Shown here piece by piece: positions 24-5,065 of a stretch of 28,705 nt of DNA (the first letter of the stretch is position 1; every line of letters begins with the position of its first letter). The notes under the pieces are model-generated. The model was not told the origin of the DNA, did not search any database, and worked only from the letters and a program-made list of their open reading frames with translations. This DNA is from a virus. The translations under genes were made by a program, and so were the position numbers. The stretch spans positions 1 through 28,705 of IMG/VR virus record IMGVR_UViG_3300030107_000708, one strand, 5' to 3'.

Positions 24-395
24 ATGGCAAAATATTCAACTGAGTTCAAGCATAAAGTATGTCAATATTATGAGCATCATACTCTTGCACAAACTAAACA
101 AAAGTTTGGGGTAAACTCTGACCCTACCATATGTGGGTGGAGAGCCAAGCTTGGGTATAAGAACAAGTTTTATGGCCGCAATATGTATACTGAAGGTATG
201 CAACCTGCCTTGAAGAAACGTCAGCAAAGGGATTTCATGGTCACGAAAATGGATAATGCTTTTCTGCTAGCTGAGTTAACTGATTTAAAGAATGAACTCA
301 AGGATAAAGACTTGGATAGTCTGTGGCTAAAAAAGAAACTAATAGACATAAAAGGTGCTATTAAAACGATACAATATATAGCAGAGGAGGACTAA
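24..395 (+). CDS. Small helix-turn-helix protein (transposase OrfA-like HTH)
   Basis: A 123-residue basic protein. Residues 1-45 read like the helix-turn-helix domain found at the start of IS3-type OrfA proteins (YSTEFKHKV, then a helix, then KFGVNSDPTICGWRAKLG). The C-terminal half (about 75-118) is charged and probably helical or coiled coil. There is no DDE nuclease domain and no inverted repeats were seen around it, so this is more likely a phage DNA-binding protein or regulator than an active transposase. AGGAGAT at 11-17 is a good ribosome-binding site for the ATG at 24. The TAA stop shares its last base with the next ATG, which suggests one operon with the following genes. The HTH fold is an inference from pattern; the target is unknown. 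Confidence 0.7.
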   Translation: MAKYSTEFKHKVCQYYEHHTLAQTKQKFGVNSDPTICGWRAKLGYKNKFYGRNMYTEGMQPALKKRQQRDFMVTKMDNAFLLAELTDLKNELKDKDLDSLWLKKKLIDIKGAIKTIQYIAEED

Positions 396-887: not shown

Positions 888-2546
888 ATGGCAAATTACA
901 CACTCGTTCCAGTAAATACTGATGAGATTAGAAATCATTATGGTGATGATATATGTGACAGGCTTGTACCATATCAACCACACCTGTTTGATAATCTTAT
1001 GTGGGGTAGTGACAATGGTAAACCCACACTCGTTGGTGGTAACGTACAGCTATCTGACGGTAGTATGTACTACTTGGTTACACCAGAGAAGTATGGTTTC
1101 GTAGTCAAGAAACAGTATCGTGAAGATCCTAATGAGTCTGACCCTGTGCTTCGTGCATGGGGTGACTATGATGGTGTATTGTTTTCAGCTAGTGATCACA
1201 TACTACAAGATTGGTTTATGGACATTATCAATCAGACTGATATATCTTATCAAGGTGATAAGTTATTTACCAGTGATGCCTTCAAACCTAAGTACAGGTT
1301 ACGTGCATTCAACTGTAGACGTTCACAACAGTACACAGGTAAGATCACCTTGTATAAATCACACAAGGATTTAGATGATGATCGTGAGACTGCTATGCGA
1401 CCTGCTCGTGCTATCAAACTTATGTTTCCTGAGTTCGATCACAATACACTCAATGAGATTACTGATGCGTACCTACAGAAGTTTGCACCACGTAAGCTAG
1501 TACTCCATACCTCTGAGTCTCCAGATGACTTCAAGCTTGCATACTCTGGTGAGCAGTCTAACAGTGAGAACATCCAGACTAGCTACAAGAGAAAGCATAT
1601 GTCTCACAGCTGTATGCGGTATGAGTTCTCTAACTTACCTCAGCACCCTGTCGAGGCTTATGCCAGTGGTGACTTCAAGATTATCTATGTACTAGATCAA
1701 GATGGTCTGGTATGTAGTAGGTGTGTGGTTGCTATAAATACTGATGTTATTGGTAATGCACCACAAGCTGGCCCGATCTATGGTGTATCCGAGCAGTCTA
1801 TTGACATGATTAACAACCACCTAACTGATGTTATGAATGCAATACAGGCAGGTAGTGCTGACTGGTCTGGTGCTAGGTTGTGTAGGATACCTTACCCTGA
1901 CGGTGAGGGTTTCGTTGCACCTTACCTAGACATATGCCCACAAGCACTGACTGATAACGGTGAGTATCTTGTTGTAGATAGTTACGGTGAGATTGATGCC
2001 AGTTGTTACAGTGGTATACTTGGTGGCTATGAGTATCAATGTCACCATTGTGAAGAGGGTCTCAGTAATGATGAGTCTTACTTCTCAGAGCACACAGAAG
2101 AATACTACTGTGAGTCCTGCTACTATGAGGAGCATATCTACTGTGACTATGCAGGAGTAGATGTACACAGAGATGATACTACTACGGTATACATCATGGG
2201 TGGTAGTGGTCACAGTTATACTGAGTTGGTAGCTACCAGTGTCATCGAGTACGGTGATGACTTTATCTACTGCGATACTGACGGTGAGTATTGGGATAAC
2301 GATAGTGCTGTATACATTGAGTCACAAGATATCTGGTGTGACCCAATCAATCTTAAGGCTGATTACTTTGAGTGTGACTGGACTAACGAGTGGTATCACA
2401 ATGACGAGATGTGTAGAACAATTGACGGTGAGAAGGTGTGTAAGCAAGCACTGGATGACCATGATGACGATTGGTCTTACAATGAGGCCGATGGATGTTA
2501 TTATATAACTGAAATACTTAATGAAATTAATAAAGAGGAGCTATAA
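888..2546 (+). CDS. Large Cys/Asp/Tyr-rich phage protein with zinc-ribbon-like C-terminus
   Basis: A 552-residue protein of unknown function. The ATG at 888 is chosen over an in-frame ATG at 861 because GGAGG at 876-880 lies seven bases before it and because 861 would lie inside the preceding gene. Around residue 240 there is a conserved phage module (SCMRYEF, then HPVEAYASGD, then IIYVLDQDGLVCSRCVV, ending GPIYG). From about residue 380 onward the protein becomes very rich in Tyr, Asp, Glu and Cys. It contains a C-x2-C, x19, C-x2-C arrangement that looks like a zinc ribbon, followed by several 25-30 residue modules containing a Cys-Asp step and Gly-Glu turns. Zinc binding is inferred. The TAA overlaps the next ATG by one base, coupling it to the peptidase gene. 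Confidence 0.75.
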   Translation: MANYTLVPVNTDEIRNHYGDDICDRLVPYQPHLFDNLMWGSDNGKPTLVGGNVQLSDGSMYYLVTPEKYGFVVKKQYREDPNESDPVLRAWGDYDGVLFSASDHILQDWFMDIINQTDISYQGDKLFTSDAFKPKYRLRAFNCRRSQQYTGKITLYKSHKDLDDDRETAMRPARAIKLMFPEFDHNTLNEITDAYLQKFAPRKLVLHTSESPDDFKLAYSGEQSNSENIQTSYKRKHMSHSCMRYEFSNLPQHPVEAYASGDFKIIYVLDQDGLVCSRCVVAINTDVIGNAPQAGPIYGVSEQSIDMINNHLTDVMNAIQAGSADWSGARLCRIPYPDGEGFVAPYLDICPQALTDNGEYLVVDSYGEIDASCYSGILGGYEYQCHHCEEGLSNDESYFSEHTEEYYCESCYYEEHIYCDYAGVDVHRDDTTTVYIMGGSGHSYTELVATSVIEYGDDFIYCDTDGEYWDNDSAVYIESQDIWCDPINLKADYFECDWTNEWYHNDEMCRTIDGEKVCKQALDDHDDDWSYNEADGCYYITEILNEINKEEL

Positions 2547-3526
2547 TGTATAGTATAATAGAAATGTTGGGGTACATGAGACCCCAAGGATCAATCACAC
2601 AAAAATTATTTTGTGAACGATTTATTGAACCAACCTTTGGCGTACCTGATGAGCATGGTAATTACATCTTGCAGATAGGTCATAAACCTAAGCTATGTTT
2701 TACTGCACACCATGACACTGTGCATAAACAAGCAGGTATACAAAAGCTAGTTGTTACTAATGATGTAGTAACTGTGGCTGACCCCAAAGTATCTAGCTGT
2801 CTAGGTGCTGACTGTACCTCTGGTGTATATGTCATACTCTGCATGATTGAAGCAGGTATTGAGGGTACGTATGTTATTCATTCGGCTGAGGAGATTGGCT
2901 GTCAGGGTAGTAGTGAGTTAATCAAAGACTACCCGATGTGGCTTACCTACACCAAGGCTGTAATATCTTTTGACAGGTACGGTGACAACTCTGTGATCAC
3001 ACACCAGATGGGCTTTCGTACTGCATCAGATGCCTTTGCTAATTCATTTGCAGATGCACTCAATATGCCACAGCTCAAGCCTGATACTGGTGGTTCATAC
3101 ACTGACAGCAATGAGTATGCTGAGATTGTATCTGAGTGTACTAACATCAGCGTTGGTTACTACAGTCAACACAGTACCACTGAGTCACAGGACTTAGCCT
3201 ACTTAGAGAAGCTAGTGTATGCATTGGAGAATGCTGACTGGTCTAAGCTAGTGTTTGAGCGTGATCCAAGTATTATTGAGAACCTTAACAGAGGTAGTCG
3301 ACTTACCTACAGCTCAGATTATTGTTACGGTTATGACGACAGTAGTATCTATCAAGGTAGTATGGATAACGTAGGTCAACTGTTTGAGATTGTCGCAGAT
3401 AATACCTATGCTGTCGCTGAGTTACTAGACTCTTTAGGTATGACACCGTTAGACTTAATGGAGGAGTGTAATATAGATGATGCTAACTTGTATACTAAAA
3501 TATCTAATACTAGATATAGTATGTGA
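2546..3526 (+). CDS. M20/M28-type zinc metallopeptidase (aminopeptidase-like)
   Basis: A 326-residue cytosolic-looking protein with no signal peptide. The two-metal aminopeptidase/deacylase active site appears complete: H55-x-D57 in the motif AHHDTV, bridging Asp89 in CLGADCTSG, the general-base/metal pair E115-E116 in HSAEEIG, Asp143 in SFDRYGD, and His209 in YYSQHSTTE. This ligand order is that of M20/M28/M42 peptidases, which remove N-terminal amino acids or cleave small amide bonds. The insert between Asp143 and His209 is short, so a large dimerisation domain seems absent. It sits last in the 24-3526 operon, coupled to the Cys-rich protein. Substrate is unknown; roles in peptide recycling, modification removal or host interference are all possible. 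Confidence 0.85.
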   Translation: MYSIIEMLGYMRPQGSITQKLFCERFIEPTFGVPDEHGNYILQIGHKPKLCFTAHHDTVHKQAGIQKLVVTNDVVTVADPKVSSCLGADCTSGVYVILCMIEAGIEGTYVIHSAEEIGCQGSSELIKDYPMWLTYTKAVISFDRYGDNSVITHQMGFRTASDAFANSFADALNMPQLKPDTGGSYTDSNEYAEIVSECTNISVGYYSQHSTTESQDLAYLEKLVYALENADWSKLVFERDPSIIENLNRGSRLTYSSDYCYGYDDSSIYQGSMDNVGQLFEIVADNTYAVAELLDSLGMTPLDLMEECNIDDANLYTKISNTRYSM

Positions 3527-3537
3527 CACTGTGTCAC
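3523..3537. promoter_or_regulatory. Perfect 15-base palindrome, possible operator
   Basis: GTGACAC-T-GTGTCAC is a perfect 7-base inverted repeat around one central base. It overlaps the stop codon of the peptidase gene and ends two bases before a possible -35 box. It has no following T-run, so it is a poor terminator. Its size and position fit the binding site of a dimeric repressor or activator controlling the integrase transcript. No binding protein is identified. Confidence 0.45.
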
Positions 3538-3539
3538 GC

Positions 3540-3568
3540 TTGACTAAGATATGATTTGCATATATGTA
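3540..3568 (+). promoter_or_regulatory. Possible sigma70-like promoter upstream of integrase
   Basis: TTGACT at 3540-3545 and TATGTA at 3563-3568 are separated by 17 bases in an AT-rich stretch. The -35 is close to consensus; the -10 is weak. The pair lies between the 15-base palindrome and the long dyad, at the only sizeable gap before the integrase, which supports a promoter here. This is inference from matching only. Confidence 0.3.
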
Positions 3569-3569
3569 T

Positions 3570-3644
3570 TACTTAAAGTATAACTATAGGTATTTAATAA
3601 TTATAATTAAAAGTTATTAGATACTTTAAGTTATACTTTAAGTA
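3570..3644 (+). repeat. 75-base dyad: long imperfect hairpin
   Basis: Positions 3570-3602 pair with 3612-3644 around a 9-base loop. Of 33 positions, 28 are Watson-Crick, 3 are G-T and 2 are mismatches (3586/3628 and 3587/3627). The outer 16 positions are perfect. The right arm also holds a tandem 12-base repeat (ATACTTTAAGTT then ATACTTTAAGTA, 3621-3644). All three wobble pairs are G-U in plus-strand RNA and would be A-C mismatches in minus-strand RNA, which favours a role in the plus-strand transcript. The base of the stem abuts the ribosome-binding site of the leader ORF. It could be an RNase III site, a translation switch, or a recombinase-binding site next to the integrase. Confidence 0.6.
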
Positions 3645-3656
3645 GGAAAGGATAAC

Positions 3657-3722
3657 ATGGAAGTATACCAAAAACCTGACGACTCACATGATGATTGCAC
3701 ACACTGGATAGGAAAGATATGA
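3657..3722 (+). CDS. 21-residue leader ORF coupled to integrase
   Basis: ATG at 3657 opens a 21-codon frame beginning MEVYQKPDD and ending TGA at 3720-3722. A good ribosome-binding site (TAGGAAAGG, 3643-3651) lies directly at the foot of the long hairpin. Its end overlaps the preferred integrase ATG (3719) in an ATGA arrangement, so translation of the leader could deliver ribosomes to the integrase start. The peptide has no recognised domain. Whether the peptide itself matters is unknown. Confidence 0.45.
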   Translation: MEVYQKPDDSHDDCTHWIGKI

Positions 3723-4603
3723 AACTAAAAGATGCTATGAATAAATACTTTAGAACAAGACAGTTTAGCTCTCTGTCTAGATCCTCTCAACTAAACTATG
3801 AGTATGCTCTAGCATCTATCTGTCGTATGTCTGTTATGGGCAAGACACTTGGCAACGTTAACATCAAGAAGATTAATCCTGCTATGTGTCTGGAGATATA
3901 CGATACAGTAGAACTGGGAACCTCAACAGCAAACGCAAACCATATTGCTAGAGTGTTCTCAGTTCTTATGAATTTTCTAATCTCAATAGATGAGATACCA
4001 AACAACCCGATGGCTAGAGTCAAGAAGAGATCAAGCGAACCTCGATCTGTGATATGGACACATGACCAAGTGATGTCTTTTCTTGACACTGCCTTCGGTA
4101 ATTTTGAGTGGAGAAACATAGGGCTAATTGTTCTCATGTGTTATGAGTGGGGACAGAGACCAATAGACATTCGTAACTTGACTTGGGAATCAGTTGACTT
4201 AGAACAAGGTAAAGTTACAATCACTCAAAGTAAACGTGGTGCTACCGTTGAACTACCAATACCTGACAACTTATTAGAAATGCTAACTGAACAGAAAAAG
4301 GATTGGGACTTTCAAGAATATGTAGTACCTCATCACAGGACACAGGACAGTGCCTACAGACCGCTAACAGTATCCCAGATGACCTCCCTGCTTGGAGAAG
4401 TTAAGGCTACTGTAGGACTTCCTGATGACCTGCGAGTTGGTGACTTGAGAAAGACTGCGATAGTACAGATGATAGAAAGTGGGGTAGATCACTTAGCTAT
4501 TCAGTCTGTCTCTGGTCACAAGAGTGTATCAAGTTTAAATCCATATAATAAATTTAGTTTAAAGACAGCACAATCTGCTTTGGAAAGGAGACAAAGACAA
4601 TGA
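3719..4603 (+). CDS. int: Tyrosine recombinase / phage integrase
   Basis: A 294-residue protein. Residues 1-100 form the helical core-binding (SAM-like) domain. The catalytic domain carries Arg147 (GQRPIDIRNLTW), Lys172 (TQSKRGA), Arg244 in GDLRKT, His267 in VSGHKS and nucleophile Tyr276 (NPYNKF). The usual first His of the HxxR box is Gly241 here. I chose the ATG at 3719 because it overlaps the leader ORF stop; an in-frame ATG eight codons earlier (3695) lies inside the leader ORF and lacks a ribosome-binding site. The enzyme would catalyse site-specific insertion or excision of phage DNA. No tRNA gene or obvious attachment core is seen nearby; the 3570-3644 dyad is the best candidate binding region. 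TGA overlaps the next ATG. Confidence 0.92.
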   Translation: MKLKDAMNKYFRTRQFSSLSRSSQLNYEYALASICRMSVMGKTLGNVNIKKINPAMCLEIYDTVELGTSTANANHIARVFSVLMNFLISIDEIPNNPMARVKKRSSEPRSVIWTHDQVMSFLDTAFGNFEWRNIGLIVLMCYEWGQRPIDIRNLTWESVDLEQGKVTITQSKRGATVELPIPDNLLEMLTEQKKDWDFQEYVVPHHRTQDSAYRPLTVSQMTSLLGEVKATVGLPDDLRVGDLRKTAIVQMIESGVDHLAIQSVSGHKSVSSLNPYNKFSLKTAQSALERRQRQ

Positions 4604-4920: not shown

Positions 4921-5065
4921 TTATAAAATAAGACCTCGCTCTGAAGTCGAAGAGCTTGTAACTAAATTTATTGTTGATAATAAAATACATGCACAATATG
5001 GCAAAGATACGGAAGGTCTTTTCATAGTGCAGTTTTTAGTAGAGGAGAGGACTGATGCAAAATAG
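4913..5065 (+). CDS. 50-residue protein, unknown
   Basis: A short frame starting MDDYKIRPRSEVEELVTKF and ending TAG at 5063-5065. It starts inside the end of the previous gene after AAGGAAAGG and overlaps the next gene by 11 bases, the same packing as its neighbours, which is the main reason to believe it. The peptide is charged and mostly helical (SEVEELVTKFIVD). It has no recognised domain. Confidence 0.5.
   Translation: MDDYKIRPRSEVEELVTKFIVDNKIHAQYGKDTEGLFIVQFLVEERTDAK

Follow-up and report, generated by a model that had tools for sequence, protein, structure and literature searches.

The window analyzed here is the whole of a 28,705-base virus record. At the locus of interest, the end of a peptidase gene is followed by a presumed sigma70 promoter, a large inverted repeat, a short leader ORF and a tyrosine integrase gene (Table 1). 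The promoter site is not listed by a generic promoter scan of the window, and relatives carry TTGACA-N17..19-TATATAAT at the same place. Many relatives also have, just 5′ of the −35, a TGACA..TGTC motif (identified by eye) that is related to the palindrome overlying the peptidase stop codon. The leader ORF ends in DDSHDDCTHWIGKI, and a similar motif lies 5′ of the integrase in CRP-2 and CRP-603. Among named phages, the integrases nearest to that of the window are those of HMO-2011 and the CRP roseophages (~38 to 41% identity), and comparison of the integrase profile with solved structures gave a XerC-like recombinase as the sole match by sequence; judged from its length and the matched region, the enzyme appears to have no arm-binding domain. 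No phage record with DNA similarity to positions 3500 to 3720 was found.

Table 1. Features around the hairpin and the integrase gene, in window positions
Feature	Position	Strand	Basis
Palindrome GTGACACTGTGTCAC, over the stop codon of the peptidase gene and before the presumed −35	3523–3537	.	sequence
Presumed sigma70 promoter of E1: TTGACT (3540–3545), 17-bp spacer, weak TATGTA (3563–3568)	3540–3568	+	
Hairpin, element 1 (E1)	3569–3645	+	folding and inverted-repeat ranking
Unit U1, ACTTAAAGT	3571–3579	.	operator-like, by sequence
Unit U2, ACTATAGGT, degenerate	3583–3591	.	operator-like, by sequence
A+T-rich spacer between the unit arrays; inner stem possible (z −2.87 alone)	3592–3622	+	
Unit U3, ACTTTAAGT	3623–3631	.	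operator-like, by sequence
Unit U4, ACTTTAAGT	3635–3643	.	operator-like, by sequence
Presumed ribosome-binding site AGGAAAGG of the leader ORF, adjoining the stem base	3644–3651	+	sequence
Leader ORF MEVYQKPDDSHDDCTHWIGKI, 21 aa, kept in many relatives; stop overlaps integrase start (ATGA)	3657–3722	+	
Tyrosine integrase, 294 aa, XerC-like size	3719–4603	+	

A reading of the sequence alone had picked out a stem of 33 positions at 3570 to 3644 (28 Watson-Crick pairs, 3 G-U pairs and 2 mismatches, with the outer 16 positions perfect), and folding confirmed it. Positions 3560 to 3660 of the plus strand form 32 pairs around a 9-nt loop (−31.8 kcal/mol, z −7.6), and none of 200 dinucleotide shuffles folded as well; the minus strand of the region folds less well (−22.7 kcal/mol, z −6.1). 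The stem comprises an outer 17 pairs (3569 to 3585 with 3629 to 3645), a 2×2 internal loop and an inner 15 pairs. Among the inverted repeats of the window with arms within 300 bp, none is longer or ranks higher. We found no intrinsic terminator (a G+C-rich stem plus a T run) at the hairpin, no Rfam match for it, and no tRNA or Rfam RNA in the window. A candidate T7-like phage promoter in the left arm (AACTATAGG) was rejected because the window holds no second exact copy and one-mismatch copies are not above chance.

E1 contains four near-palindromic 9-mers with the consensus ACTTWAAGT, spaced 12, 40 and 12 bp. The tandem 12-base repeat noted earlier in the right arm was confirmed and corresponds to U3 and U4, whereas the left-arm units, ACTTAAAGT and ACTATAGGT, had gone unmentioned. 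The exact pattern ACTTWAAGTW matches six times in the whole window, both strands counted, against 0.78 expected, and all six matches lie inside the hairpin. Because ACTTWAAGT is nearly its own reverse complement, arrays of such units pair with each other, and the arm-to-arm pairing follows mostly from the layout of the units. This is a caution that a striking hairpin can come from near-palindromic binding sites.

An integrase search gave 80 viral loci, and the set of upstream regions with an integrase identity of at least 60% numbered 62, including that of the window. At least one unit core is kept in 60 of the 62. The sequence-only reading had staked itself on homologous phages keeping either the pairing or the half-sites, and they do so, the half-sites nearly everywhere and the pairing in most lineages. 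A tRNA-Arg(TCT) gene lies between the array and the integrase in 29 of the 62 regions; in L010, L012 to L014, L017 to L027, L029 and others, the tRNA in this gap has an encoded CCA, and in some loci it is flanked by short complementary stretches. In L049 (~4950 to 5000, just 5′ of the integrase), the tRNA-Arg is cut after the anticodon arm and fused to the leader ORF, through either a deletion or an assembly error.

Of 20 relative records, 15 contained units by the longer search pattern and 16 by the shorter; with the patterns reversed as a control, the longer one had 0 matches and the shorter one no more than 1 on either strand. The matches cluster mostly at two places, E1 and a second element (E2) ~5.5 to 7 kb upstream. 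E2 lies directly behind a consensus promoter that reads leftward, TTGACW-N16..18-TATAAT (for example, TTGACA-GCGGGGGCATTATGAGT-TATAAT), and heads a leftward late operon of an 83-aa gene, an EF-hand-like gene and an endolysin gene (lysis genes). The 83-aa gene was present in all 15 genome stretches examined, and TTGAC[AT]-N16..18-TATAAT was found in 45 of 56 distinct regions upstream of it in the near group, compared with 0 of 55 and 0 of 61 by the same rule in the groups near CRP-1 and CRP-2. The window ends short of the expected E2 position; its nearest relatives, L005 and L003 (99% integrase identity; L121 and L122), carry E2, and that of this phage is predicted from them. At L126, L123 and other E2 loci, a second promoter-like sequence (TTGACT-N-TATAAC) precedes the ATG of the 83-aa gene by a few bases, which suggests a leaderless transcript, and a TTTTTTCTGTCGT motif lies 3′ of E2. 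G032 has a consensus promoter and units ahead of a DUF3310-like gene (assigned by eye). In L105, ~1.3 kb without long ORFs (~2480 to 3780), located between the late and early genes, carries GTGATCAC and GTTTAACGTTAAAC repeats.

The sequence of the unit varies by lineage. Most lineages have ACTTWAAGT, and other classes are ACTTAAGT in L045, L056 and L060, ACCTTAAGGT in L034, ACTWATAGT in L015 and ACTANTAGT in CRP-9. E1 and E2 of one genome share a unit class: with classes that were set after looking and lineages that share ancestry, the mean cosine between them was 0.951, versus 0.572 for permuted partners, and over 16 lineages it was 0.937 versus 0.450, with 0 of 20,000 permutations reaching the observed match in either set (the motif itself served to locate the elements of L118 and L131).

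Adjacent units start 10 to 12 bp apart in 17 cases at E1 and 36 cases at E2, with further peaks at 20 to 23 and 43 to 45 bp, and the first unit begins 0 to 7 bp after TATAAT in 24 of 27 E2s. Within a genome, the same sites accompany at least two promoters, with helical spacing and promoter overlap, as in an operator array, and both the spacing and the position of the first unit fit putative DNA sites that share one face of the helix across the predicted start site. Among the functions first proposed for the hairpin, protein binding to DNA is thus the one that has gained, since the units are kept across relatives, follow the helical repeat in their spacing and vary jointly at two separate promoters. 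With moderate confidence, we read E1 and E2 as a pair of operator arrays, one at the integrase/replication promoter and one at the late promoter, both serving a single DNA-binding regulator that is probably a repressor. Counting against this reading, operators do not explain the pairing of the unit-free E1 spacer, the −10 of the window is weak and was missed by the promoter scan, E2 lies outside the window, and neither candidate for the regulator (below) held up.

An alternative is that the elements act as RNA, the 5′ leaders of the integrase and late transcripts folding to serve in put- or nut-like antitermination, as a 5′ stabilizer or as an RNase III site. The transcript strand folds better than shuffles in most of 19 nonredundant lineages, and the unit-free spacers of E1, which like those of E2 are very A+T rich, pair above chance (mean z −1.53, combined p 5.5e-7; opposite strand, mean z −1.07, p 2.7e-4). 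The proposal that G-U pairs betray selection on the plus-strand transcript found weak support, in that mismatches over the 19 lineages were G-T in 17 cases versus A-C in 7, although the excess arises partly because the units are oriented. Furthermore, E1 and E2 are alike in position and orientation relative to their promoters, in the manner of HK022 put.

Pairing with compensatory changes was not found at every occurrence, however: spacer pairing was significant at E1 and only marginal at E2 (transcribed strand, p 0.054, not significant; opposite strand, p 0.032), and the transcript strand folds poorly at E1 in L044, which keeps its units (z −1.3), and in L065 (z −1.6). Eight stem pairs vary among nine near relatives, four of them paired in all and four broken in some, and the one varying pair with a two-sided change is a unit-orientation flip. 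A transcript starting at the predicted +1 would lack the outer stem, given that the first unit lies across −10/+1, and an RNA element would not be expected to show dyad symmetry within each single unit. We consider an RNA element unlikely. As main functions, the RNase III site and the translation switch suggested earlier are not supported, in view of the −10/+1 overlap, of the weak pairing in certain lineages where the units are retained, and of near relatives in which broken and preserved varying pairs are about equally numerous. An additional RNA role at E1, beside the operator units, is possible, since the unit-free spacer there pairs more than chance would allow. We regard as unlikely a combined reading in which E1 would be two things in one, a lineage-specific operator array whose sequence defines regulatory (immunity) groups in marine HMO-2011-type phages and a folded 5′ leader on the integrase transcript.

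Less probable still is an attachment site, in which the units would be arm or core sites of attP bound by an integrase that represses itself, as in KplE1. The array adjoins int and is directly followed by the tRNA-Arg(TCT) gene in the 29 regions described above, and for tRNA-associated integrases the attachment region commonly overlaps the int promoter (PMC2951348). The units are not confined to such a locus, however. They also occur at the late promoter. CRP-9 is without an integrase (PMC8528129) and yet carries arrays with matching units both before gp17 (E1) and at the late promoter (E2), its tRNA-Arg(TCT) standing apart from them. Since CRP-9 has both elements and no integrase, the element is not specific to integrase or att, and the earlier proposal of a site for integrase or an accessory protein loses its integrase link. 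The XerC-like length of the enzyme and its apparent lack of an arm-binding domain also speak against arm sites. A scan of a genome collection with the integrase alignment gave 13 pattern matches, none of them a relative, and no prophage was found.

That the units recruit a phage factor that turns on middle and late genes, or one that opens the DNA at the A+T-rich spacers, we regard as very improbable: both elements do govern later gene blocks, but the consensus promoters of E2 should need no activator, and the units lie over and 3′ of the presumed start site, the usual position for a repressor.

Two small proteins were considered as the regulator. The 123-aa protein (window positions 24 to 395, and relatives) is fast changing, has HTH-like repeats and is doubled in some relatives; we rejected it because it varies more than the units do and is absent from two unit-bearing genome stretches. 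The 83-aa protein was rejected because it is also found without such arrays and has no recognizable fold; two low-confidence structure predictions (pLDDT 59 and 66) gave no significant fold match in the PDB. A Pfam search of the small ORFs of the window revealed no DNA-binding family.

We know of no operator or repressor in HMO-2011-type phages. In the paired-operator reading, E1 would be the operator array of the integrase/replication promoter, where the units begin just 3′ of the sigma70-type promoter position, and E2 would be its equivalent at the late promoter. Each would consist of several dimeric sites, near-palindromes of 9 to 11 bp one helical turn apart, reaching from the −10 region to ~+80 on either side of a spacer, and a single sequence-specific regulator, phage or host encoded, would bind both arrays cooperatively. 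It would most likely repress both promoters, given the consensus promoter at E2 and a first unit lying across −10/+1; activation or antitermination may take the place of repression. Such a regulator could restrain the integrase/replication and late genes jointly in lysogeny or early infection. E1 would thus be half of a genetic switch acting at two promoters and not an integrase-specific RNA signal. HMO-2011-type phages have been described as dominant and widespread among marine viruses (PMC9038755). With an array pair that changes in step and is legible in the sequence, regulatory groups of uncultured phages could be predicted, and CRP-9 is a cultured phage in which the array-pair reading could be tested.

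Phages of the lambda type have paired operators, OL and OR, and MetJ/Arc-type operators are stacked. The likeness to these lies in short dyad sites about one helical turn apart over promoters, at two promoters per phage; the differences are that the promoters here are those of the integrase/replication and late genes instead of two early ones, that each array has several sites laid out as a hairpin, and that the regulator is putative. The HK022 put element reportedly occurs twice, behind two promoters. The put element resembles E1 and E2 in being a stem-forming element just 3′ of phage promoters (PMC9378689), whereas the near-palindromic units, helical spacing and −10/+1 overlap found here point to DNA, and the inner stem is not clearly kept at E2. 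The autoregulation of KplE1 intS (PMC2951348) likewise involves binding sites over the int promoter, with a tRNA adjacent as in many relatives of this phage, but the sites described here are also found at a promoter that does not serve int and in a phage that lacks it. The text of PMC9038755 contains neither “promoter” nor “repressor” and that of PMC8528129 does not contain “promoter,” so the arrays are apparently not described there. With the HMO-2011-type (PMC9038755) and CRP-9-type (PMC8528129) phages, these genomes share the general layout, with int before the replication module and the 83-aa gene before the late genes, and also the tRNA-Arg(TCT), which is present in CRP-9 and CRP-13.
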